DNA from: Flavobacteriaceae bacterium
GTDB lineage: Bacteria > Bacteroidota > Bacteroidia > Flavobacteriales > Flavobacteriaceae
DNA: 8,842 nucleotides
Reading direction: 5' to 3'
Assembly (NCBI GenBank): GCA_030618945.1
Contig: JAUXCI010000098.1
Coordinates: 1 to 8,842, forward strand
The translations under genes and the position numbers were made by a program. Positions 1 to 8,842 of this stretch are shown here, piece after piece. The notes beneath the pieces are model-generated. The model was given only the letters and a program-made list of their open reading frames with translations, did no database searches and was not told the origin of the DNA. Each line of letters begins with the position of its first letter. The stretch's first letter is position 1.

Positions 1-345
1 TACATTGTTTTTTAATGGCATCATCCTTACCACCAAACCGACCGACCGATCTTTTAAGTTATTTCCAAGTGCTCAGTTTATTAATGGACCGTAATGATTG
101 TATTGAAATATCTTATTCATAGTTTCCGTGTAGGAATTATGTTCGTAAAAGTAACCGACAATTCCATTTTGATAAATATAGTTCTTTTCGATCAAACATC
201 ATTGGGCTCCTATAAGATAAAAAACCCATTCCCGGAATCATCCATTACACAATTCCGAATAGTGATGTGATTTCCTTTTTCAACATAATTGCTGAAGAAA
301 TTTTTTGATAGGGCTCCACAACCTCTGCATCGTTAATACAAGTAG
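1..345 (-). pseudogene. Relic of a right-handed parallel beta-helix protein (polysaccharide-enzyme-like), cut by the window edge
   Basis: No intact frame exists, but the minus strand reads as beta-helix protein in two pieces. The first, from about 290 down to 200, includes KGNHITIRNCVMDDSGNGFF, a typical helix-coil pattern. A frameshift follows. The second piece, from about 190 to the window edge, reads IEKNYIYQNGIVGYFYEHNS, then FQYNHYGPLIN, a stop, and ALGNNLKDRSVG. I recall the GNNLKDRS and YEHN-type motifs from secreted or periplasmic beta-helix proteins annotated as polysaccharide-degrading enzymes; this is memory, not a search. The TGA at 73-75 sits where a glycine (GGA) is expected, so one base change explains it. 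One frameshift plus one nonsense codon indicates a dead gene. Its 5' part is missing and similarity fades just before the displaced tRNA terminator at 351. Catalytic residues cannot be judged from this fragment. Confidence 0.55.
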
Positions 346-350
346 TATAA

Positions 351-384
351 AGCAAAAGCACTTACTTTCGTAAGTGCTTTTGCT
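351..384 (-). terminator. Displaced copy of the tRNA-Asn terminator hairpin
   Basis: This is a perfect 15-bp stem (351-365 with 370-384) around a 4-nt loop that reads GAAA in the minus-strand RNA. It is followed by a broken U-rich tail (UUUUGCUUUAU). The hairpin is nearly identical to the one behind the intact tRNA at 839-869 and forms part of the displaced tRNA 3' end copy. It could still terminate read-through from the tRNA or the GIY-YIG gene, but its U-tract is weaker. Confidence 0.65.
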
Positions 385-422
385 CCTCCTCTTTCCCGAA
401 GGTTTTCGGGACGAACCAAGGA
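354..422 (-). repeat. Displaced 3' end of tRNA-Asn (direct repeat of 842-897)
   Basis: Bases 354-393 match 842-881 with one difference in 40 (T362 versus C850), covering the terminator hairpin and the tRNA acceptor 3' strand. Bases 412-422 then match 887-897, the T-arm. Between these blocks the intact tRNA has GGACT, while this copy has an 18-bp palindrome. No D-arm or anticodon arm is attached, so it cannot be a functional tRNA. The repeat ends 2 nt from the stop codon of the GIY-YIG gene. The two copies therefore flank a 419-bp segment holding that gene, like the duplicated target of a tRNA-directed insertion or the remains of a tandem tRNA pair. Confidence 0.85.
394..411. repeat. 18-bp palindrome (TCCCGAA-GGTT-TTCGGGA) inside the displaced tRNA fragment
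   Basis: This is a perfect 7-bp inverted repeat with a 4-nt loop. It replaces five bases of the T-arm in the displaced tRNA-Asn 3' end. Its TCCCGA...TCGGGA ends are shared with the inverted repeats at 785-812 and 2833-2850, so it probably belongs to a dispersed family of small palindromic repeats. Confidence 0.7.
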
Positions 423-424
423 AA

Positions 425-729
425 CTAACTTTTATACTTAAGAAGTAATTTTTTAGATATTTCAGGATACTTAATAAGATTATCAATATATATTCTACTC
501 TTCATATTTTTTATGTGCTGCTCAATTCTAAAGGCTTGTACTATGTTTTCACATTCAATATAATAAAATAATTCCCAATCATCTGCTCCGTGCGTATATT
601 TCTTATTACCATAATAACTCGTGTTGTGTTTCTCAATTCTTCTATCAAGTATATCCGAAGTATATCCGAAGTATATCCAATATAAAACTTATTATTTTTT
701 TTGCTATGGAGTATGTAACAAATTGCCAT
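425..729 (-). pseudogene. GIY-YIG nuclease-family gene, frameshifted by an 11-bp repeat expansion
   Basis: The frame opens at ATG 729 with MAICYILHSKKNNKFYIGYT, the GIY-YIG core in its CYI...YIG form. It then meets three tandem 11-bp units (647-679), runs out of frame and stops at 541. Removing one unit restores a continuous 97-codon frame ending at TAG 425-427. That frame reads YTSDILDRRIEKHN, then WELFYYIECENIVQAFRIEQ, and ends LLLKYKS. The restored protein has the family landmarks: the arginine motif (R26/R27), H31-N32 and the probable metal-binding glutamate E66. Its length is normal for single-domain bacterial GIY-YIG proteins, whose true role is mostly unknown. The gene lies just downstream of tRNA-Asn in the same direction and ends 2 nt from the displaced tRNA 3' end. 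It may be a recent pseudogene or a phase-variable gene caught in the off state. Confidence 0.85.
647..679 (-). repeat. Three tandem 11-bp units in the GIY-YIG gene
   Basis: Three contiguous units of AAGTATATCCG (plus strand) lie at 647-657, 658-668 and 669-679; the last ends in A instead of G. On the coding strand the unit is CGGATATACTT. Two units encode GYTSDIL in the correct frame; the third shifts the frame. Since 11 is not a multiple of 3, gain or loss of one unit would switch the gene off or on. Confidence 0.9.
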
Positions 730-784
730 TTCAAATTAATCGTAAATCAAAACAGAAGTTAACATAAGGTTGCACTTTTAGGCT

Positions 785-812
785 TCCCGATATCCGCTAC
801 GCTTCATCGGGA
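785..812. repeat. Inverted repeat TCCCGAT / ATCGGGA in the leader of the GIY-YIG gene
   Basis: Perfect 7-bp arms (785-791 and 806-812) flank a 14-nt spacer. This lies in the 730-838 gap between the GIY-YIG start codon and the tRNA terminator; I see no further gene in that gap. It shares its arm sequence with the palindromes at 394-411 and 2833-2850. Confidence 0.6.
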
Positions 813-838
813 TAAACTTCTCGCCCAATAGTCGTCAC

Positions 839-869
839 AAAAAAAGCACCTACTTTCGTAAGTGCTTTT
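839..869 (-). terminator. Intrinsic terminator of tRNA-Asn
   Basis: In the minus-strand RNA, a 12-bp stem (842-853 with 858-869, one G-U pair) closes on a GAAA tetraloop. It runs into seven consecutive U (845-839, the first four also pairing in the stem). It begins 1 nt after the discriminator base of the tRNA, as expected for a single-tRNA transcription unit. Confidence 0.85.
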
Positions 870-870
870 G

Positions 871-944
871 CTCCTCCTCTTGGACTCGAACCAAGGACCC
901 TCTGATTAACAGTCAGATGCTCTAACCAACTGAGCTAAGGAGGA
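871..944 (-). tRNA. tRNA-Asn (anticodon GUU)
   Basis: The minus strand folds as a complete cloverleaf. The acceptor pairs TCCTCCT with AGGAGGA, the D-stem GCTC with GAGC, and the anticodon stem TCTGA with TCAGA around the loop CTGTTAA. A 5-nt variable region and the T-arm CTTGG-TTCGAGT-CCAAG follow. The anticodon GTT reads asparagine codons AAC and AAU. The discriminator is G, as usual for bacterial tRNA-Asn, and CCA is not encoded, so it must be added after transcription. The length is 74 nt with the discriminator. There is no promoter in the 70 nt directly upstream; the nearest good one is at 1077-1107, so the primary transcript should carry a leader of about 125 nt containing the 5' tRNA fragment and palindrome. 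Confidence 0.97.
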
Positions 945-1017
945 ATATATTTTATTTTTGAGTCTTTTATTTGACTTTGTCTTTACTTGCTATTGCCGGA
1001 AACCGATAGAGCTCAGT

Positions 1018-1054
1018 CTGAGCCCTGCCTGCCGGCAGGCAGGTAAGGAGGAAT
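1018..1054 (-). repeat. tRNA-Asn 5'-end fragment split by a palindrome
   Basis: On the plus strand the intact tRNA end reads CTGAGCTAAGGAGGAAT (930-946). Here the same 17 bases occur as CTGAGC (1018-1023) and TAAGGAGGAAT (1044-1054), separated exactly by a 20-bp perfect palindrome. No anticodon or T-arm follows, so it is a relic of the 5' acceptor strand and start of the D-arm. It lies about 25 nt downstream of the tRNA promoter, where a tRNA gene would normally begin. This suggests it marks the ancestral gene position. Confidence 0.75.
1024..1043. repeat. 20-bp perfect palindrome CCTGCCTGCC x 2 (inverted)
   Basis: CCTGCCTGCC is followed directly by its reverse complement, giving a perfect GC-rich palindrome without a loop in AT-rich surroundings. 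It sits without any base loss between tRNA positions 9 and 10 of the 5' fragment. GC-rich palindromes of this kind recur between genes in flavobacterial genomes as I remember them, which points to a small mobile or propagated repeat. Confidence 0.8.
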
Positions 1055-1076
1055 GTTATTTCCTTTTTAAGGTGTG

Positions 1077-1107
1077 CAAATATAGATGTTTTTAAATTTA
1101 CCGCAAA
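1077..1107 (-). promoter_or_regulatory. Housekeeping promoter for tRNA-Asn
   Basis: The minus strand reads TTTG (1107-1104), 19 nt, then TATATTTG (1084-1077). This fits the Bacteroidota primary sigma factor consensus (TTG, about 17-23 nt, TAnnTTTG). Transcription should start near 1070, run through the 5' tRNA fragment and reach the tRNA at 944. Confidence 0.75.
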
Positions 1108-1127
1108 TGTTTTTCAAAAAATATTTC

Positions 1128-1177
1128 AAAAAAAATACCCACTTAAAATGATCCATCACAAACCAGTTAAAAGTGGG
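1128..1177 (-). terminator. Terminator of the sigma / anti-sigma operon
   Basis: CCCACTT (1138-1144) pairs with AAGTGGG (1171-1177) across a 26-nt loop, followed in the minus-strand RNA by UA and eight U (1135-1128). It begins 23 nt past the stop of the anti-sigma candidate and separates that operon from the tRNA promoter. The loop is long, so efficiency is uncertain. Confidence 0.65.
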
Positions 1178-1199
1178 CATTATAATTCGTTGAAATTGT

Positions 1200-1703
1200 T
1201 CAGATATTTACCGAAATTTTTCTGTTCTTCATAAAATAATCCAAGAATAAAAGAGAACTTAAAGCAAAAACACTCATCCCAAACAAAGGTGATGTTAATA
1301 TAGGTGGCAAGTCAAATGTCATAGAATTGGAAAGCACATTATTTACTTTTTCCATAGCTCCTTCAATGGCTTGAGAAGTAGCTGTATTCCTTTCTCCTGT
1401 CATAAGAACATATACAAAAATTGACACAATAAACGCAGCTATAAACGTCCAGGCTTTTTTCCCTATAATTGGTGCATCGACCACTTTAACTGATGCCTTT
1501 TCAACCTCGGCCATCACTCTTGCGGTAAAATTTAAAGAAGGGCTTTCCAGTGTATTCTTTTTCAACAAAGAACCCAAGGCCTTTTCTTGCTTTGCATCAA
1601 CTAAATCAATCTGATTCATAATCTTATTTGTAAAATCAACAGACGGTTGCTCCATCTTCAAACTCTCTCGAATCAATTTATCTATTTTCTCGTCTTCCTT
1701 CAT
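1200..1703 (-). CDS. Membrane protein, candidate anti-sigma factor for the adjacent ECF sigma
   Basis: This 167-residue protein has a cytoplasmic N-terminal region (1-82), a membrane helix (about 83-102), a short periplasmic loop, and a second hydrophobic segment (about 138-158) ending in the basic tail KNRK. The N-terminal region contains a duplicated motif 35 residues apart: PSVDFTNKIM (20-29) and PSLNFTARVM (55-64), each preceded by a helical, charged stretch. There is no HxxxCxxC zinc motif, so it is not a classic zinc-binding anti-sigma. The start codon overlaps the sigma stop codon (ATGA), so the two are translationally coupled. Position, topology and coupling support an anti-sigma role: holding the sigma factor at the membrane until a signal releases it. 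That role is inferred; no known anti-sigma fold is certain here. Confidence 0.7.
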   Translation of the reverse strand: MKEDEKIDKLIRESLKMEQPSVDFTNKIMNQIDLVDAKQEKALGSLLKKNTLESPSLNFTARVMAEVEKASVKVVDAPIIGKKAWTFIAAFIVSIFVYVLMTGERNTATSQAIEGAMEKVNNVLSNSMTFDLPPILTSPLFGMSVFALSSLLFLDYFMKNRKISVNI

Positions 1704-2275
1704 AATATCGTATTTACTTCTTCCTTCAATAAGAATGATAATTCTGTATTTAATTTTTTCCGAGCCCTAAATAATTTGACTTTGATATTACTTTGTGTCA
1801 AGTTTGTGATTTGCTCTATTTCCTCAATCGAACTTTCATTCATATAGAACAAAGTAATCAAAAGTGCATCCTTTTCTGCTAATCTGCCAATTGCCTCTCT
1901 TACATACTTCTGTTGTTCTCCATTCTTAATCGCCTCCAGTTGTGGAAATTCACTTCCTTCACTATAGTTGTCGATCACATAATCATCAATATCAGATGTA
2001 GCTACTTTTTTCTTTCTGATTTTTGTTATGGAATTTCTATACACTATTGTATACAACCATGTTGAGAACTTTGAATTCCCTTTAAAGCTTTCCAATTTTT
2101 CATAGGCCTTTAAAAAACTATCCTGAGCAACTTCTTCCGCATCCTCGTGACTCTTAACGATTTTTATAGAAATCGTATAGACCATGTCTTTATACTTATT
2201 AATTAAATAAGCAAAGGCATTAGCATCTCCTTGTAAGACCTTGTCAATATATATTTGATCTGAAATATTATCCAT
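1700..2275 (-). CDS. ECF-type RNA polymerase sigma factor
   Basis: This 191-residue protein has the two-domain ECF layout. Region 2 spans about residues 22-90, with the core-binding stretch HEDAEEVAQDSFLKAYEKL (43-61) and the -10 recognition part FKGNSKFSTWLYTIVYRN (64-81), followed by a basic run. A variable acidic linker covers 91-118. Region 4 spans about 121-180 and ends in the helix-turn-helix TNLTQSNIKVKLFRARKKL, the -35 recognition helix. The full length and intact motifs indicate a working protein. It directs RNA polymerase to a dedicated promoter set. It is first in a two-gene operon with the candidate anti-sigma factor. The promoter upstream is not of housekeeping type and matches the divergent one almost exactly, so autoregulation is likely. 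The ribosome-binding site is weak (GGA about 11 nt upstream). Confidence 0.93.
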   Translation of the reverse strand: MDNISDQIYIDKVLQGDANAFAYLINKYKDMVYTISIKIVKSHEDAEEVAQDSFLKAYEKLESFKGNSKFSTWLYTIVYRNSITKIRKKKVATSDIDDYVIDNYSEGSEFPQLEAIKNGEQQKYVREAIGRLAEKDALLITLFYMNESSIEEIEQITNLTQSNIKVKLFRARKKLNTELSFLLKEEVNTIL

Positions 2276-2298
2276 TTGAATTATTATCCATCTATACT

Positions 2299-2329
2299 AT
2301 AAGACAATCCTATTGCAAATAAGGTTACA
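2299..2329 (-). promoter_or_regulatory. ECF-type promoter of the sigma / anti-sigma operon
   Basis: The minus strand reads TGTAACC (2329-2323), 17 nt, then GTCTTAT (2305-2299). The same hexamer-like boxes at the same spacing occur on the plus strand at 2362-2392. A -35 box with AAC and a -10 box with GTC are typical of ECF sigma promoters. The expected start is near 2290, leaving a leader of about 15 nt before the ATG at 2275. Confidence 0.7.
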
Positions 2330-2361
2330 AGTTAGTCCAAAAACTTTATTTTAAAAAAATG

Positions 2362-2392
2362 TGTAACCTATATTTTAATGTTGTTGTCTTAT
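2362..2392 (+). promoter_or_regulatory. ECF-type promoter of the divergent membrane protein gene
   Basis: TGTAACC (2362-2368), 17 nt, GTCTTAT (2386-2392). Both boxes and the spacing are identical to the minus-strand promoter 32 nt away, and the shared block extends to TTGTCTTAT. The leader to the ATG at 2429 would be about 30 nt. Confidence 0.7.
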
Positions 2393-2428
2393 TAGGAAAG
2401 TAAAAAGTTTAACTAAATAATTTATATC

Positions 2429-2770
2429 ATGGAAGAAGTTTTAATTCCCTTAATAGTATTTTCATCTATTTTCGGCATCGTCTACGTGTTTTTAAACACG
2501 AGAAACAAAGAACGTTTATCATTAATTGAAAAAGGTGCAGATGCCTCTCTATTTGCAAGTAAAAAGAATTACAAATCCAACCTTACCTTGAAATTTGGAA
2601 TGTTAGCGGTTGGAATTGGTATTGGCATTTTGATTGCATCCATTTTGGAGACCTATACGGTTCTGGATGAAGAAGTCGCTTATCCATCAATGATCTTTTT
2701 ATTTGGTGGTTTGTTCTTAGTAGCAAATGCGTTGATAGAAAAAAAAGATAAGAATGATGATAGTGAATAG
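2429..2770 (+). CDS. Small inner-membrane protein (DUF6249-like), predicted sigma target
   Basis: This 113-residue protein has three predicted membrane segments: about 4-22 (VLIPLIVFSSIFGIVYVFL), 54-74 (LKFGMLAVGIGIGILIASIL) and 86-103 (PSMIFLFGGLFLVANALI). A conserved-looking cytoplasmic link, RNKERLSLIEKGAD, follows the first helix. The N-out helix, RNKER...IEKG linker and glycine-rich second helix resemble DUF6249-type proteins that I remember beside ECF sigma genes in Bacteroidota. The function is unknown. It is divergent from the sigma operon and shares its promoter type, so it probably belongs to the same regulon, perhaps as a membrane stress effector. No clear Shine-Dalgarno sequence precedes the ATG; GGAAAG at 2395-2400 is too far away. 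The acidic and lysine-rich tail (KKDKNDDSE) is likely cytoplasmic. Confidence 0.85.
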   Translation: MEEVLIPLIVFSSIFGIVYVFLNTRNKERLSLIEKGADASLFASKKNYKSNLTLKFGMLAVGIGIGILIASILETYTVLDEEVAYPSMIFLFGGLFLVANALIEKKDKNDDSE

Positions 2771-2798
2771 TAATTAATCAACAATCTAATTCTAAATT

Positions 2799-2830
2799 AA
2801 AAAAGCTGTCTCGTGAGACAGCTTTTTTTT
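2799..2830. terminator. Bidirectional intrinsic terminator between convergent genes
   Basis: AGCTGTCTC (2804-2812) pairs with GAGACAGCT (2815-2823), flanked by six A on the left and a run of T on the right. It can therefore end transcripts from both sides: the membrane protein (stop at 2770) and the GH31 gene (stop at 2863). The effective loop is about 4 nt. Confidence 0.92.
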
Positions 2831-2832
2831 GG

Positions 2833-2850
2833 TCCCGATAGTTATCGGGA
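2833..2850. repeat. 18-bp palindrome TCCCGATA-GT-TATCGGGA
   Basis: Perfect 8-bp arms with a 2-nt centre lie between the bidirectional terminator and the GH31 stop codon. The arm sequence matches the inverted repeats at 394-411 and 785-812. It may be a copy of a dispersed palindromic repeat and would also form a hairpin in the 3' end of the GH31 mRNA. Confidence 0.75.
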
Positions 2851-2862
2851 TTATAATTTAAT

Positions 2863-5268
2863 CTACTTTCCAAAAATAGTCAACTTGGTAAACTCTTTAT
2901 TTACAACAAAAGTGCTGTCACCATTGATTTTGACTTTTGCAAAATCTGTAACTTCATGATCCACTTCTATTTTATCGATCTCAAACGGCAAGCCATTGAG
3001 TTTAATTTTAAAGTTCTCATAAGGTGTAATAAATTTTCCGGATTTAAATTGTTGTATCGTTATCGATTTCTTTTTACCAATAAGCTTAAAATTGCGTAAA
3101 CTGAATCTTCCTTTTTTATAATCATATCCATCCTGTGCATCTTCATAAACCTGAGAAGTTTCTTTTCCATTTTTATAATACACATCCAGACCCAACTCTT
3201 TTATTTCCTTTTCACCTACATATTGCTGAATAGGGTACTTTGGAATGATAGCTCCTGCCTTAACAAAGATCGGCATTGAGTCAAGATCGGCGTCTACCCA
3301 AAATTCCTCACCTCCTTCTATCAATTCATTTGTCCAGAAATTATACCATTCTCCAATCGGAAAATACATCCTTCTACCCTTGGCATTAGGTTCTGCTATT
3401 GGGCAGGCCAGTATCTTTTCACCAAAAATAAACTCATCATTTCTGTAATGTGTATGAGGATCAGCCTGATCAAATAAAACCAATGATTTAAGAATTGGAA
3501 TTCCTTCTTCCACATACCTCCAGAAAGAAGTATATAAATAGGGTAAAAGTTGGTACCTGATTTCAATAAACTTTCTTACAATGTCTGTTATATTATTACC
3601 AAATGCCCATGGTTCCTGATCCCCGTGATCTCCTGAGGAATGAGTTCTGCAAAAAGGATGAAAAATACCCAATTGAATCCATCTTGCGAAAAGTTCGCCA
3701 TTAGGTTGCTCGGCAAAACCACCGATGTCAGACCCAACAAATGAATATCCTGACATTGACAAACGCTGAGCCTGAATATTAGCAATATTTAGATGATCCC
3801 AGGTAGCAACATTGTCGCCGGTCCAGGTTGACGTATATCTTTGCGTCCCTGAATAGGCAGCTCTTGTGATCACGAAAGGCCTTTTAGGATATGAGAATTT
3901 CTTTAAGCCTTGATAGGTAGCCCTGGCCATTTGCATACCGTATATATTGTGTGCTTTTCTATGACTACATCTAATACCTTCGTAATTATGTCTTACATCA
4001 TCCGGAAAGGTCTTTCCGGGAACATCCATAACCGCTGGTTCGTTCATGTCATTCCAAACCCCTCGAACCCCTATATCTTGTATCAATTCCTTGAACAATC
4101 CTGACCACCATTCACGTACCTCAGGATCTGTATAATCTGGAAAATAACATTCTCCCGGCCATACCTTCCCTTTCATATATGGCCCATCTGCTCTTTTACA
4201 AAAATAGTCCTTCTCTAATGCCTCTTTAAACACCGGATAATCCAAATCGATCTTGATCCCTGGATCAATAATCGCTATGGTCTTAAATCCGTCGTCCAAT
4301 AATTCTTTGACCATCCTTTTCGGATCCGGAAAATATTCCTTGTTCCAGGTAAAACACCTGAATCCTTCCATATAATCAATATCAAGATAGATGGCATCAC
4401 ATGGAATCTTTAATTCTCTGAATTTACTAGTTACGGCCTTCACGTTTGATTCCGGGTAATAGCTCCATTTGCATTGATGGTAACCCAAGGACCACAATGG
4501 CGGTAACTGATGTGGTTTTCCGGTAAGGTCAGTATAAGAAGCAACAACGTCAGTCATATCAGGCCCGTAGATAAAATAATAATTCATTTCACCTCCCTCG
4601 GCCCAGTAACTCGTTATATTTCTACGCTCAGCACAAAAGTCAAAGAAAGACCTGAAGGTATTATCGAAAAAGATACCATATGATTTGGTGTGGTGCAGCC
4701 CTATATAAAAAGGAATACTCTTATAAATAGGATCTGAACCCCTTCCATATGCATATGAATCGGTTACCCAATTCTCAAAACGCTTACCTTTTAAATTTAC
4801 ATCGACTGGCTTATCGCCTAATCCATAATAAGCCTCACTATCTTGTGACACCTTTGACATCTTAACAATATCTCCTCCAAACTCATAACTCTCTTCCCAA
4901 TGAAAACCCAATTCATCTTCACAAATCAATTTTCCATCTTTCGCATCGTAAATTGATTTTCGTAAATCAGCTTTAGCTATCTTGCAAATCAGCTTGGAAG
5001 TAGTGATGATATAATGCGCATCATCATCCGTTATCTCAAGATGATTAAAACCTCGACTCGCATATTTCGTGATCGCATATGAAAAATCCTTGTCAAAAAT
5101 TGTTTTAGTGCTATATCTAAATCTCAGTACGCTATCTCTTCTAACAGTAACTTGCAATACAACGAAATTTTCGGTCGTAAAATACAAGGTGTCAACGTCT
5201 TTTCTATAAGAAATTATTTTTGAAGGGTATAAATCTCCTTTGTGTTCCAGCTCAGTGCTTAATATCAT
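2863..5268 (-). CDS. Glycoside hydrolase family 31 alpha-glucosidase, cytoplasmic
   Basis: This 801-residue enzyme should release glucose from non-reducing ends of alpha-glucans or maltooligosaccharides by a retaining mechanism. An N-terminal beta-sandwich (about 1-250) leads into the (beta/alpha)8 barrel (about 255-590), then C-terminal beta-domains including a DUF5110-like part (about 690-800). Signature residues are present: nucleophile D407 in GVWNDMNEP, acid/base D485 in WTGDN, D296/D298 in YLDIDYMEGF, and FVGSDIGGF (510-518) with R541 and H543 in CRTHS. No signal peptide is seen, so it acts in the cytoplasm, unlike most Bacteroidota GH31 enzymes in polysaccharide utilization loci. It follows glgB by 139 nt in the same direction. 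A promoter candidate at 5293-5319 may allow separate expression. Alpha-glucosidase is the best call, but other GH31 activities (alpha-xylosidase, glucan lyase, transglucosidase) cannot be excluded. Confidence 0.93.
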   Translation of the reverse strand: MILSTELEHKGDLYPSKIISYRKDVDTLYFTTENFVVLQVTVRRDSVLRFRYSTKTIFDKDFSYAITKYASRGFNHLEITDDDAHYIITTSKLICKIAKADLRKSIYDAKDGKLICEDELGFHWEESYEFGGDIVKMSKVSQDSEAYYGLGDKPVDVNLKGKRFENWVTDSYAYGRGSDPIYKSIPFYIGLHHTKSYGIFFDNTFRSFFDFCAERRNITSYWAEGGEMNYYFIYGPDMTDVVASYTDLTGKPHQLPPLWSLGYHQCKWSYYPESNVKAVTSKFRELKIPCDAIYLDIDYMEGFRCFTWNKEYFPDPKRMVKELLDDGFKTIAIIDPGIKIDLDYPVFKEALEKDYFCKRADGPYMKGKVWPGECYFPDYTDPEVREWWSGLFKELIQDIGVRGVWNDMNEPAVMDVPGKTFPDDVRHNYEGIRCSHRKAHNIYGMQMARATYQGLKKFSYPKRPFVITRAAYSGTQRYTSTWTGDNVATWDHLNIANIQAQRLSMSGYSFVGSDIGGFAEQPNGELFARWIQLGIFHPFCRTHSSGDHGDQEPWAFGNNITDIVRKFIEIRYQLLPYLYTSFWRYVEEGIPILKSLVLFDQADPHTHYRNDEFIFGEKILACPIAEPNAKGRRMYFPIGEWYNFWTNELIEGGEEFWVDADLDSMPIFVKAGAIIPKYPIQQYVGEKEIKELGLDVYYKNGKETSQVYEDAQDGYDYKKGRFSLRNFKLIGKKKSITIQQFKSGKFITPYENFKIKLNGLPFEIDKIEVDHEVTDFAKVKINGDSTFVVNKEFTKLTIFGK

Positions 5269-5292
5269 AAATCGTCATTTAATCGAATTTTA

Positions 5293-5319
5293 CAAACCTA
5301 AGTAAATTCAAAATTTCAA
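5293..5319 (-). promoter_or_regulatory. Candidate housekeeping promoter for the GH31 gene
   Basis: On the minus strand TTG (5319-5317), 16 nt, then TAGGTTTG (5300-5293) match the Bacteroidota consensus, with a spacer one base shorter than usual. The predicted start near 5287 leaves about 20 nt before the ATG at 5268. Confidence 0.5.
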
Positions 5320-5321
5320 CG

Positions 5322-5362
5322 TGTATATAAAAACTAAAAATACCCTGCTCTTTTTATATACA
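5322..5362. promoter_or_regulatory. 12-bp inverted repeat just upstream of the GH31 promoter
   Basis: TGTATATAAAAA (5322-5333) is perfectly repeated in inverted form at 5351-5362, with a 17-nt spacer. It ends 2-3 nt upstream of the -33 box of the GH31 promoter candidate. It could be an operator or activator site, or an RNA hairpin shaping the glgB-GH31 junction. The minus-strand RNA has no U-run directly after it, so a simple intrinsic terminator is unlikely. Confidence 0.4.
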
Positions 5363-5407
5363 TCATAAAAATAACAGGATACTTTTCAATAAATCGAAAA
5401 ATCTATA

Positions 5408-7318
5408 CTATATTATCTTAAAAGCAACTAAACTTAAGGGTGGAAGTGTTATTTCTGCCGAATAAGGCTTACCATCTCTTTCCTCCTTTATGATCTTAAT
5501 TTCTTTTGAATTGCTTATCCCACTTCCAAAATATTTTTTAAAATCACTGTTCATCACTTGTTTAAGTTTTCCCTTACGGGGAATTCCTATTTTATAACTT
5601 TCCCTTACAACTGAAGTAAAATTGCAAACTACTATCAAGTCATTGATCTCATCATGACCTTTTCTGATATAAGACATAACCGAATTCTCATGATCGCCAT
5701 AATTGATCCATTCAAAACCCTCTCCGCTAAAACCTTTTTCATAAAGCGCCGGGGTTTGCTTATAAAAAGTATTCAAATCTTTGACAAAATTCTGCAAGCC
5801 TTTGTGAGACTTATAATCTAATAAATGCCAGTCTAAACTTTGATCAAAATTCCACTCTGCTGATTGCCCGAACTCACCTCCCTGAAAGATTAGCTTGGTG
5901 CCCGGATGCGTATACATATAGGCAAAGAGCAGTCTCATATTTGCAAAGCGTTGCCATTCATCACCAGGCATTTTATCAAGTAAAGATTTTTTTCCATATA
6001 CCACCTCGTCATGAGACAAGGGCAACATAAAGTTTTCAGAAAAAGCATATGCCAAACTAAAAGTAATCTCATTTTGATGATGCTTTCTGTAAACAGGGTC
6101 CTTACTAAAATATTCCAATGTATCATGCATCCATCCCATCATCCATTTCATACCAAAACCCAAGCCTCCATGTTCAACAGATTTGGTGACCCCGGAAAAT
6201 GCTGTTGATTCTTCTGCTATGGTTTGTATTCCGTCAAAATTAGCATAAACCTCTCTGTTAAAATCTTTTATAAATGAAACAGCTTCTAAATTCTCTCTTT
6301 CTCCATAAATATTGGGTTCCCATTCACCATCTTCCCTTGAATAATCAAGATAAAGCATTGATGCAACAGCGTCAACCCTAAGTCCGTCAATATGGTATTT
6401 ATCAAACCAGTAAAATGCGTTGGAGATCAGAAATGACTTTACCTCGTTCCTGCCATAGTTAAAGATCAAACTCTTCCAGTCTTGATGATAACCTCTTCGA
6501 GGATCAGGGTGTTCATATAAATGACTCCCATCAAAAAATCCTAAACCATGATCATCAGACGGAAAATGTGAAGGCACCCAATCCAGGATAACCCCTATAT
6601 CATTTTGATGCAAACGATCACAAAGTTTCATTAAATCCATAGCCGATCCAAACCTTGAGGTTGGGGCAAAATACCCGACCAATTGATACCCCCATGATGG
6701 ATCAAAAGGATATTCCATAACTGGCATAAATTCAACATGGGTAAAATTCATTTTCCTGACATAGGCTACGAGTTTATCAGCCAGCTGATCATAACTTAAA
6801 AAGCTATTGTCACTCGCATTTCGCATCCAGGAACCAAGGTGTACTTCGTATACGGCATATGGTTTGTCCAAGCCATTCTTTTCTTTTCTATAACCCATCC
6901 AGGCCTTATCCTTCCATTTATAACCATCTATCCCTTTTATGATCGAGGCTGTATTAGGTGGATGTTCACAGGAAACTGCATAGGGATCTGCTTTTTCGGT
7001 AACGATCTGATTATGACTTGATTTGATTTTGTATTTGTAACGCATGCCGTCAATGGCATCTGGGATAAAACCCTCCCAAATACCTGAGTCATCCCAGCGT
7101 ACACTCAAACGATGTTGTTTTTCATTCCAATAATTAAAATCTCCAATGACAGAAACCGATTCCGCCGAAGGAGCCCAAACAGCAAAATACGTTCCTGACA
7201 CACCTTCAAGTGTAACGGGGTGAGAACCGAATTTTTCGTAAAGCCGGTAATGCTTCCCGGATTTAAATAAATCGATGTCAAATTCGCTAAAAAGACTATA
7301 AGAAATTACCTCTGCCAT
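5408..7318 (-). CDS. glgB: 1,4-alpha-glucan branching enzyme
   Basis: This 636-residue GH13 enzyme cuts alpha-1,4 glucan chains and re-attaches them by alpha-1,6 bonds, making branched glycogen in the cytoplasm. An N-terminal CBM48 domain covers about 35-115 (FAVWAPSAESVSVIGDFNYW). The catalytic barrel follows with all four GH13 regions: DWVPSHFP (246-253), GLRVDAVASM with nucleophile D316, TIAEES with acid/base E369, and LSHDEVV with D437. A C-terminal beta-domain (about 545-636) completes it. There is no extra N1 domain, as in the shorter GlgB forms. Only 4 nt separate the maltokinase stop from this ATG, so the two are co-transcribed and probably translationally coupled. The pairing with maltokinase suggests work in maltose-1-phosphate-based glucan synthesis, in place of or beside the ADP-glucose route. 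Start choice is clear because the upstream gene fixes it. Confidence 0.97.
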   Translation of the reverse strand: MAEVISYSLFSEFDIDLFKSGKHYRLYEKFGSHPVTLEGVSGTYFAVWAPSAESVSVIGDFNYWNEKQHRLSVRWDDSGIWEGFIPDAIDGMRYKYKIKSSHNQIVTEKADPYAVSCEHPPNTASIIKGIDGYKWKDKAWMGYRKEKNGLDKPYAVYEVHLGSWMRNASDNSFLSYDQLADKLVAYVRKMNFTHVEFMPVMEYPFDPSWGYQLVGYFAPTSRFGSAMDLMKLCDRLHQNDIGVILDWVPSHFPSDDHGLGFFDGSHLYEHPDPRRGYHQDWKSLIFNYGRNEVKSFLISNAFYWFDKYHIDGLRVDAVASMLYLDYSREDGEWEPNIYGERENLEAVSFIKDFNREVYANFDGIQTIAEESTAFSGVTKSVEHGGLGFGMKWMMGWMHDTLEYFSKDPVYRKHHQNEITFSLAYAFSENFMLPLSHDEVVYGKKSLLDKMPGDEWQRFANMRLLFAYMYTHPGTKLIFQGGEFGQSAEWNFDQSLDWHLLDYKSHKGLQNFVKDLNTFYKQTPALYEKGFSGEGFEWINYGDHENSVMSYIRKGHDEINDLIVVCNFTSVVRESYKIGIPRKGKLKQVMNSDFKKYFGSGISNSKEIKIIKEERDGKPYSAEITLPPLSLVAFKII

Positions 7319-7322
7319 GTGT

Positions 7323-8842
7323 TTAATGATTTATTATATTTGAAATTCCTTTTAAAGGAATCAAGGCCCAACTAGGGCGAGAATTTAATTCGTATCCTAC
7401 TTCGTATACTGCTTTTTCAAGCAAACAATATTTTAGAATAAAGATACGCTCTTGGTGGTAACCAATATTTAAATTGGCATTTTGAACTGCTTCAGTATAT
7501 TTTTCAAGAAAGATACTAGTTAAATAACTATACACTATTTCTGCTGCTTCGAAAAGTTCTTCTTGTGTCCTGTTATACGACGCTCCATTATTAAAAACCG
7601 TTGCATAAATTGCGTAATGAAAAGACCTGAACAATCCTGCTACATCTTTTAAAGGTGGTTGTTTAACTTTTCTGTCGCGAATCGTACTTTCCGGCTCACC
7701 TTCAAAATCCAGAATAAAAAAGTCATTATTTGTAACCAGGATTTGCCCTAAATGATAATCCCCGTGAAGTCTGATACGTTCGCCTTTTAATTTGGTCCAA
7801 TCAAAATTGGAAATACGTTTTCTGATTACACTTTTCTTTTCCAAAAACTCTTTGGCCAGCTCTAGTGCCATCCCGTCAAGTTCGTGCATCCTGTTTTCGA
7901 TCGTATTCAACCGGTTTTGAAATTGATATATCAATCGGTTCTTTAACCACACTTCATAATCACCATTAAAATGATTTGGTGTAAAGGCGGTATCTTCAAA
8001 CTCTGAGCCCAGTACGATATGCATCTCAGCCGTACGGGTTGCCAGTAATTCTATCTGCTGAAACAGCTTAAGCCCAACCCAATCAATGATCTCAGGGCCT
8101 ACATTTTTAATTTGAAGGCGCTCAAATCTATCAATCTTTGGCAATTTATCTATGGAAATACGCTTTGTATCAAGGTTTAAGAAAACCTGGTGGAGTTCCT
8201 TTAACATATAGTCCCATGCATCTCCTTGATTGGGCACCAATTTCTGCATAAGTGCAATGGTAATATTATCTTTATCAGAATCAATTATGTTCAGGCTCCC
8301 CTGATAGGAGGGGGTATTTCTAAAATCTTTTACTTGGGTCAAAAACCTGCTCATTTCATAGTCAGGATTTTTATCGACGAAGATTCTTCTAAAAAATTTA
8401 AGCACATAACTATCATTATAAATGATGGAAGTATTGCTTTGTTCAAGCCCCATAAATTTGGAAGACTCGTATACTATGTTGGTAAAACTTTCGCTTTTAT
8501 GGTACTGAACCTTTGTGCGATCCATGGGTGCAGCTCCAAGTATTCTTTCAAATACAAGCTTTCTAAAAGCCTCAAGATTTATGGCATCTATGATATAACC
8601 CTGCTGTCCTTGAATTTTAATTGGAAGAATTCGCTCACTCGTAGCAAAATTAACATCCGTCACAAACGCAATAGGTAGAAAATAATGATGATAAAACGCT
8701 TCGACAAAATCAATTTCCAGGATGAGCCCAAAGTAAACTTCCCCTTTTTGTTGTATCCTAAAATACTCTGAAAGTTCAATGTATTTTAACTTGCTTGCCT
8801 TGCCTCCATACCACCGCTGTTTTATTATATAATCTTCCAGAA
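7323..8842 (-). CDS. mak: Maltokinase (5' end beyond the window; possibly part of a TreS-maltokinase fusion)
   Basis: The enzyme phosphorylates maltose with ATP to maltose-1-phosphate, the donor substrate for GlgE. A GTG at 8663 could be taken as a start, but the same frame stays open to the window edge and encodes 59 more residues, including LEDYIIKQRWYGGKA, the conserved opening of the maltokinase N-terminal cap. The GTG is therefore internal. In visible numbering (505 residues), the kinase core includes SYVLKFFRRI (about 144-153), the catalytic loop RLHGDYHLGQ (357-366), the metal-binding ILDFEGEP (376-383), RSFHYA (405-410) and the family-typical C-terminus YELNSRPSWALIPLKGI. All key residues are present. 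In many Bacteroidota this domain is fused behind trehalose synthase (TreS); the visible part cannot decide between fusion and a free-standing kinase. It is followed after 4 nt by glgB. Confidence 0.93.
   Translation of the reverse strand, partial: LEDYIIKQRWYGGKASKLKYIELSEYFRIQQKGEVYFGLILEIDFVEAFYHHYFLPIAFVTDVNFATSERILPIKIQGQQGYIIDAINLEAFRKLVFERILGAAPMDRTKVQYHKSESFTNIVYESSKFMGLEQSNTSIIYNDSYVLKFFRRIFVDKNPDYEMSRFLTQVKDFRNTPSYQGSLNIIDSDKDNITIALMQKLVPNQGDAWDYMLKELHQVFLNLDTKRISIDKLPKIDRFERLQIKNVGPEIIDWVGLKLFQQIELLATRTAEMHIVLGSEFEDTAFTPNHFNGDYEVWLKNRLIYQFQNRLNTIENRMHELDGMALELAKEFLEKKSVIRKRISNFDWTKLKGERIRLHGDYHLGQILVTNNDFFILDFEGEPESTIRDRKVKQPPLKDVAGLFRSFHYAIYATVFNNGASYNRTQEELFEAAEIVYSYLTSIFLEKYTEAVQNANLNIGYHQERIFILKYCLLEKAVYEVGYELNSRPSWALIPLKGISNIINH

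Follow-up and report, generated by a model that had tools for sequence, protein, structure and literature searches.

Introduction

The nearest precedents for the element described in this report are the phage endonuclease SegB and the mobile open reading frames (mORFs) of fungal mitochondria. SegB is a free-standing GIY-YIG homing endonuclease of T-even phages, similar in family to the protein studied here, and its gene is likewise situated among tRNA genes (PMC13096335, PMC2988022). According to the available parts of the source, SegB of phage T6 recognizes the motif RAWTSGAAC, cuts inside tRNA genes and thereby amplifies a tRNA segment into tandem repeats (PMC13096335); in the passages available from both sources, neither the replacement of part of a tRNA nor any relic or palindrome is reported (PMC13096335, PMC2988022). 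In this report we analysed a stretch of 8,842 nucleotides (nt) from a Flavobacteriaceae bacterium (GenBank assembly GCA_030618945.1, contig JAUXCI010000098.1, positions 1 to 8,842), hereafter referred to as the window, in which an intact tRNA-Asn gene, a small GIY-YIG nuclease gene and displaced pieces of tRNA-Asn (relics) are arranged on the minus strand. SegB is phage-borne, whereas the family described here resides on bacterial chromosomes, its proteins are mostly about 80-95 amino acids (aa) in length, and one part of the tRNA is regenerated.

The mORFs, known for atp6 of Allomyces and for atp6, atp9, cox2 and nad3 of Glomus, contain an endonuclease reading frame and, in the excerpts available, insert together with a replacement 3' end of the host gene, leaving the native 3' end behind, as in the family described here (PMC3630166). 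Their hosts are mitochondrial protein genes, whereas the host here is a bacterial tRNA gene; unlike in mORFs, either part of the tRNA is replaceable and the relic bears a palindrome. A likeness is also noted to the system of repetitive extragenic palindromes (REP) and their partner RAYT, in which dispersed short palindromes are tied to a small nuclease-type gene, as here. RAYT is described in the passage available as a tyrosine transposase (PMC2817692). The partner here is instead a GIY-YIG protein and the site a tRNA gene; in the loci read, no REP-type tyrosine transposase gene was present between the tRNA copies, although the genomes as a whole were not searched for RAYT. When integrative elements target tRNA genes, their insertion restores the tRNA and a fragment is left at the far end. 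Such elements use site-specific integrases, whereas no integrase gene was found at the loci read here, where the sole gene between the tRNA copies is that of the GIY-YIG protein. Among the literature matches listed, all from open-licence papers, there was no account of GIY-YIG elements in bacterial chromosomal tRNA genes. As described below, the window locus is probably a decayed minimal mobile element, composed of a small GIY-YIG gene and a replacement part of the tRNA and likely spreading by homing, and a widespread class of elements of about 300 bp appears to reside within essential Bacteroidota tRNA genes, leaving a complete tRNA.

The tRNA-Asn locus of the window

The window is part of a 2.39-Mb assembly of 80% completeness, and 21 congeners were available for comparison. 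Its family is shared with Leeuwenhoekiella, since G223, assigned to that family as well, has 3231 bp identical to locus L175 of Leeuwenhoekiella polynyae. A preliminary description of this DNA had proposed that a promoter, a 5' fragment of tRNA-Asn, an intact tRNA-Asn, a GIY-YIG gene, a 3' fragment and a second terminator follow each other on the minus strand, and this order was borne out, with a leader between the 5' relic and the intact tRNA. The promoter (1077..1107), read directly, consists of TTTG (1107-1104), a 19-nt spacer and TATATTTG (1084-1077), which we take to be of the Bacteroidota type; a like promoter is located directly 5' of tRNA-Asn in 12 congener loci. The 5' relic (1018..1052) includes tRNA positions 1-9 (1052-1044) and 10-15 (1023-1018), interrupted by the 20-bp palindrome CCTGCCTGCCGGCAGGCAGG (1043-1024), and it shares AT-TCCTCCTTA and GCTCAG with the intact copy at 17 of 17 bases. 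The remainder of the leader (945..1017) is common to five species of the genus and carries no GIY gene. The intact tRNA-Asn (GTT) at 870..944, detected by ARAGORN and matching Rfam RF00005 at 71.3 bits, is followed by a terminator hairpin (842..869) and then by the GIY-YIG gene (425..729), of which the stop codon (427..425) is only 2 nt from the 3' relic (382..422). This relic is composed of 11 T-arm bases, TCCTTGGTTCG (422..412), the 18-bp palindrome TCCCGAAAACCTTCGGGA (411-394) and the acceptor 3' end (393-382), and is followed by the second terminator hairpin (351..381). The 40-nt repeat at 354-393 and 842-881, spanning the last 12 nt of the tRNA and the terminator hairpin, is identical at 39 of 40 bases (98%). 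These base counts (39 of 40 with 11 further T-arm bases, and 17 of 17) and the 2-nt distance agree with those reported before; the palindromes inside both relics had not been mentioned.

The GIY-YIG gene itself was recognized correctly, PF01541 being detected on both pieces, but it is not intact. Since an 11-bp unit is repeated in 2.9 tandem copies at 647-678, inside the gene, the reading frame is shifted, and the N-terminal part (541-729) and the C-terminal part (425-676) lie in different frames. The PF01541 match was 2.1e-7 for the C-terminal frame (down to 1.8e-18 in relatives) and 4.9e-4, under the curated cut-off, for the N-terminal piece. The Y, G, R, H and E columns of the GIY-YIG catalytic domain are invariant. 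Because its gene is broken, the window copy is regarded as a fossil. The intact tRNA beside the gene is contiguous, not split, no intron or intein surrounds the GIY gene, and no intron family was detected by Rfam at E up to 1 in eight loci. Throughout this report, type A refers to a GIY gene upstream of the intact tRNA with the 5' relic before the gene, and type B to a GIY gene downstream of the intact tRNA with the 3' relic behind the gene. The window contains a type B copy, its GIY gene broken, and in addition what we read as an older type A remnant, of which the 5' relic and the leader remain without a GIY gene.

Separate insertions at the tRNA-Asn loci of the genus

Eighteen tRNA-Asn stretches were obtained from 17 of the 21 congeners; with the window, 18 of the 19 loci were read, the second contig end of genome G001 (locus L037) being left out. 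The promoter was located directly 5' of the tRNA in 12 of the 18, and a relic-plus-leader of about 105 nt without a GIY gene was situated between promoter and tRNA in five (the window and, with 5' relics related to its own, G003, G007, G010 and G019); for G017 only a 3' piece was visible, beside unread bases. The 3' relic was present in the window, G003, G012 and G020. In G010 and G019, the 5' relic and leader were accompanied by no tRNA piece 3' of the tRNA, and in G012 and G020 the 3' relic was found together with a promoter directly 5' of the tRNA. Because congeners carry each relic alone, the two relics are separate insertions, and the previously proposed single insertion of about 600 bp that brought a whole tRNA is rejected on account of these single relics. 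In the cases read, replacement by the element is confined to one part of the tRNA. The earlier idea of a tRNA-targeting element that repairs the gene it hits holds for the class, as judged from its sites, the terminator swap and its isotypes, but not in its form of whole-tRNA replacement.

When G003 was compared with the window, the last 6 nt of the relic and the downstream flank were 98.4% identical over 386 bp, the T-stem and terminator beside the working tRNA were different, and no GIY gene was left between tRNA and relic. G003 carries a fossil of the window's locus.

Two swapped alleles of the tRNA-Asn T-stem, CTTGG/CCAAG and CAAGG/CCTTG, were observed within the genus (G003, G004, G005, G010 and G011 versus the window), perhaps a trace of replaced 3' ends.

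Filled and empty sites at other tRNA genes

The exact palindrome CCTGCCTGCCGGCAGGCAGG was found at only two places in the 2.39-Mb assembly, both of them tRNA relics: the tRNA-Asn leader and a relic of tRNA-Arg(TCG), the latter followed by an open GIY-YIG gene and then by an intact tRNA-Arg. In G004, CCTGCCTGCCGGCAGGCAGG was detected at ten places, one within a tRNA-Arg relic, and the four stretches fetched around other places contained no tRNA. A PF01541 search of 22 genomes gave the small GIY-YIG genes, a family of about 475 aa and a family of about 600 aa, which from its length we assume to be UvrC; as a control, none of 14 loci of the latter was associated with a tRNA. Small GIY genes were located within the genus beside tRNAs for Arg(TCG) (four cases), Pro(TGG) (two), and Asp, Ala, Met and Asn (one each). 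At Pro, at Ala and at all but one of the four Arg loci, the GIY gene leads straight into the intact tRNA. At locus L098 the following copy is again palindrome-bearing and is cut by the contig end, at the Asp locus a second relic lies between GIY gene and tRNA, and at the Met and Asn loci the gene is downstream of the tRNA. For Arg(TCG), Ala, Pro and Asp, relatives were identified by reading in which the same upstream gene is followed by leader and tRNA only, that is, empty sites. Filled and empty alleles thus exist at one and the same site, between species, not strains.

Nine small GIY genes (L082, L086, L089, L090, L091, L094, L095, L097 and L101) had no tRNA. By eye, these are flanked by inverted dispersed palindromic repeats (GTCATTCC..., GTCATTTCGAGC... 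and GTCATTGCGAGG...), like transposon ends, L055 and L075 being left out of this reading; at L004, L085 and L088, neither a tRNA nor such flanks were seen at the GIY gene. The L088 stretch (G002) includes five 3' fragments of tRNA-Arg(TCT) at 2971-4334 and no intact copy, and its GIY match has no adjoining tRNA. For 16 loci without an intact tRNA, no rRNA or other RNA gene was detected alongside at the gathering threshold.

Recurrence beyond the genus

By using the window's C-terminal GIY frame as query, relatives were found in 28 of 199 family genomes, and a tRNA gene or fragment was located beside GIY in 28 of the 29 loci (L173 and L174 overlapping others), with L161 as the exception. A profile of 13 such proteins yielded 80 named loci, the best 80 of 513, which range from Flavobacterium to Crocinitomicaceae, Cytophagales, Saprospiraceae and Bacteroidales. 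Among these best 80 of 513, an intact same-strand tRNA was present within 700 nt in 64 and tRNA fragments in 14 more, a few of the fragment assignments being palindrome matches only, as the tRNA library for the named loci held some palindrome-bearing pseudo-tRNAs; the other two (L238 and L240) had no tRNA by BLAST. A filter against pseudo-tRNAs was used in the later screens, those of a second family and of distances. The second-family profile matched in 123 of 199 family genomes, and a tRNA or relic was found in 65 of 70 loci; three of the five loci without (L283, L304, L331, L340 and L344) are at contig ends. Eight of the 70 (L275-L282) repeat earlier loci and were dropped from the pooled counts. 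After removal of eight of 186 loci (L087, L161, L213, L285, L308, L311, L332 and L344), 178 with a clean reading frame remained, eight palindrome-flanked loci without tRNA included; of the 178, 126 had an intact same-strand tRNA no more than 300 nt away, and none had one at that distance on the opposite strand. Twelve isotypes were represented beside the family (Asn, Met, Arg, Val, Pro, Ala, Asp, His, Leu, Phe, Ser and Thr).

The association of small GIY-YIG genes with tRNA ends, for which a search of Bacteroidota had been proposed, is thus recurrent (126 of 178 on the same strand). With the same anatomy in many genera, and with CCTGCCTGCCGGCAGGCAGG only in tRNA relics of the assembly, the split-tRNA pattern goes beyond chance. 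The presence of the family in Flavobacterium is patchy, because 56 of 101 genomes had a match at any tRNA and 45 had none. Carriage by phages or plasmids was considered and set aside: L155, the only family member tried, gave no match in phage or plasmid collections at E 1e-5, viral contigs being outside that search.

Tandem arrays of GIY genes with tRNA pieces also exist; in G202, for example, five copies follow each other every 391 bp. Long, regularly spaced series of GIY-YIG copies, about 350-381 bp apart, were observed at G236:C1:541806-544301, G304:C1:181321-182960 and G289:C24:34487-36510. One family locus (L237) is from a metagenome-assembled genome titled Rickettsiales, reflecting either transfer out of Bacteroidota or a mixed bin.

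Anatomy of the element and its palindromes

In type A, the gene ends inside the tRNA or within 26 nt of it in 41 of 51 loci; 20 of the 51 genes overlap the tRNA, and 13 of these 20 end, by coordinates, on tRNA positions 8-10. Type A genes that overlap or abut the tRNA must therefore share a transcript with it if expressed, and we infer that the tRNA promoter drives them. In type B (90 loci), the start codon is at a median of 54 nt 3' of the tRNA, and the stop codon is often made of relic bases.

As a rule, a few bases of the relic are replaced by a short palindrome, the position of which is characteristic of the lineage to which the element belongs. A palindrome of the CCGA..TCGG kind was found near the gene in 72 of the best 80 of 513 loci, and among its four commonest forms both arms change together. 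This pattern fits 23 of 70 second-family loci. Of 22 hand-picked relics missed by the pattern, 17 have another hairpin such as TCCGCC..GGCGGA or GTCACGC..GCGTGAC, four (L290, L292, L310 and L316) have longer-looped or imperfect hairpins by eye, and L307 has none. The palindrome position within the tRNA was mapped for those with both 9-nt flanks matching their own tRNA (112 palindromes in 92 loci, out of 142 submitted, array copies counted singly): it was 45-51 in 45, 14-18 in 12, and in the anticodon or T region in others. The exact palindrome YCCCGATAGCTATCGGGR was located beside GIY copies at both of its places in G031 and at all three in G202, whereas as many as 40 places were counted in other genomes.

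At L259 and L263, the palindrome TCCCGATAGCTATCGGGA is enclosed by a further hairpin (AAACCG...CGGTTT), in whose loop it lies; this may point to a preference for hairpin loops.

Displacement of the native tRNA end

For type B loci with an intact upstream tRNA, the 3' end of a relic was found in 68 of 91. Displacement was followed in the 30 best Flavobacterium loci from 101 genomes. In five of these (L355-L358 and L362), a terminator of the element type, TACCACTTAC, follows the working tRNA-Asn, and a terminator of native type, GACTATC or GACGATC, is located behind the relic. In L366-L370 and L372-L374, which have neither GIY gene nor palindrome, native-type terminators (GACTGTC in L366) follow the tRNA directly. 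The filled locus L356 and the empty locus L368 are near-identical in their upstream flank, and the sequence behind the native terminator also matches; L362 has kept the relic and lost the GIY gene. This terminator swap against empty relatives indicates an insertion that replaced the 3' end of the tRNA and displaced the native end; as in mORFs, the native end in these five Flavobacterium loci is displaced beyond an endonuclease gene.

Phylogeny, selection and structural relatives

A tree was constructed from 179 proteins, with 23 relic-only loci labelled by hand. The tree is based on few columns, and many of its forks are open. Labels that combine side and isotype change 38 times on it, as compared with 105 times after shuffling. 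The Val, Phe and palindrome-flanked sets each form one group, the last with the eight of the nine tRNA-less, dispersed-repeat-flanked GIY genes that were put in the tree. For the ratio of nonsynonymous to synonymous substitution rates (dN/dS), only close pairs (dN below 0.2) were used because cross-clade pairs were saturated; the ratio was 0.06-0.16 in eight of nine, which speaks for constraint. By sequence, the closest solved structures are those of UPF0213 proteins and SLX1.

Discussion

For the anatomy and its recurrence, the filled and empty sites, the native-type terminators behind Flavobacterium relics and the clustering of targets on the tree, we propose free-standing homing by the GIY-YIG nuclease, including tRNA-gene cutting and homology repair, as the probable mode of spread by analogy with the precedents above. 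A tRNA gene lacking the element would be cut by the nuclease, and the element would be copied into the break during repair by homologous recombination; with the copied stretch, the tRNA would be complete again on one side of the GIY gene, and the displaced native part would be left on the other.

Several observations weigh against this proposal. The regenerated tRNA restores the supposed cut site, so that the element-bearing allele would face the problem of self-cutting; in Flavobacterium, the tRNAs of occupied and of empty loci are mostly identical, and immunity of the occupied tRNA based on its sequence was accordingly not seen there. In 40 of 68 type B loci, the 40 nt behind the tRNA and the 40 nt behind the relic show 80% identity or more, a level reached by 1.5% of comparisons between different loci, and local duplication would therefore fit too; the window is among the loci with alike tails, and its own tails are too similar to show displacement. 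Of the eight Flavobacterium loci that have a palindrome 3' of the tRNA, only five showed the terminator swap. L360 and L361 carry other tails behind their relics, and L382 has a tail of another type with no relic end detected. At L359 and L363-L365, the terminator is of the element type but relic and gene are both missing, a state that perhaps follows loss of the element; L047 and L052 are relics without a GIY gene. Six rows of the tree have no visible tRNA, some at contig ends. As to selection, the ninth close pair (L084/L100) has a high dN/dS of 0.77, the median over 66 independent pairs, mostly saturated and cross-clade, is 0.66, and the close-pair cut-off was chosen afterwards. Finally, 15 of 20 stretches fetched around palindromes away from the studied loci had no tRNA; among the other five, relics of tRNA-Leu (L255 and, together with a GIY gene, L261), tRNA-Ser (L262) and tRNA-Phe (L266) were present, and the L258 stretch is directly 3' of tRNA-Asp.

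The main rival to homing by tRNA cutting assumes that the nuclease opens the palindrome hairpin in the relic, not the tRNA, and that the broken end, carrying tRNA sequence, invades an intact tRNA gene, so that tandem copies would build up on the spot and further ones would arise at homologous tRNA genes. This scheme accounts for the arrays and removes the problem of self-cutting. It agrees with the fixed palindrome positions (45/51 in 45 of 112 and 14/18 in 12 of 112), the joint base swaps on both arms of the commonest forms, the occurrence of other palindromes at like places in other lineages, the confinement of the exact palindrome to arrays in G031 and G202, and the presence of a structure-specific nuclease, SLX1, among the closest solved relatives. 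The abundance of palindromes elsewhere in some genomes, such as G156 with 40 places, and the 15 fetched stretches without tRNA count against it, and altogether we consider it rather unlikely. A decayed tandem tRNA array, the alternative named in the preliminary description, with the GIY-YIG gene as a bystander, could draw on the tandem tRNA-Asn pairs common in Flavobacterium (29 of 30 loci) and on the relics without GIY in G012 and G020. With same-strand adjacency over twelve isotypes, terminators that differ on the two sides in part of the loci, empty sites within the genus and stop codons inside tRNA sequence, this alternative is disfavoured to the point of being hardly credible.

The family might instead be a toxin or immune unit, in which the GIY-YIG protein attacks tRNA and the palindrome-bearing relic RNA serves as decoy or antidote. 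In type III toxin-antitoxin loci, a repeat RNA lies upstream of the gene on the same strand, as the type A relic does, and the targets here are isotype-specific. GIY-YIG enzymes, however, nick or cleave DNA as far as described in the passages available (PMC2988022), native-type terminators behind relics are what an insertion leaves, and the 45 of 101 Flavobacterium genomes without a family match also argue against such a unit, which we judge to be very improbable. A broader and tentative idea, itself doubtful, is that small GIY-YIG genes drive a hairpin-directed mobile system in Bacteroidota that moves short palindromic repeats. Here tRNA genes would be one class of hairpin target, and the tRNA-borne forms would be self-repairing parasites fused to a tRNA, using its promoter and even conserved tRNA bases as a stop codon. 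If true, this system would be a counterpart of REP/RAYT without the transposase.

If homing into tRNA genes is the right explanation, intronless homing with repair of the host gene is not limited to phages and mitochondria but also affects cellular tRNA genes. Many annotations contain pieces of tRNA and unusual tandem arrays of tRNA genes, which would then be explained, as would the swapping of bases next to tRNA between lineages, and the family would offer compact candidates for tRNA-gene-specific nucleases.

Other features of the window

An imperfect palindrome, TCCCGAT...ATCGGGA (785..812), was read directly between the terminator and the GIY gene. By eye, a repeated stretch gactccgattggg...cagagcccaatgaggcggccgagcg with inner hairpins, located 3' of the tRNA-Asn terminator in L044 and L047, is similar to window 785-835. 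The leader of about 105 nt (window 945-1053, minus strand; L039, L042, L045 and L051) is conserved in five species by alignment and contains hairpin-like GCTCAGAACTGAGC and GTC..GAC stretches; it might be a candidate structured RNA. A group I intron or other known RNA was considered for it and rejected, no Rfam family being detected at the leader. The neighbours at window 1200-8663 include a 167-aa protein without Pfam match, a sigma-70 type factor, a DUF6249 protein, a GH31 glycosidase, a GlgB-like branching enzyme and a 446-aa protein without Pfam match.

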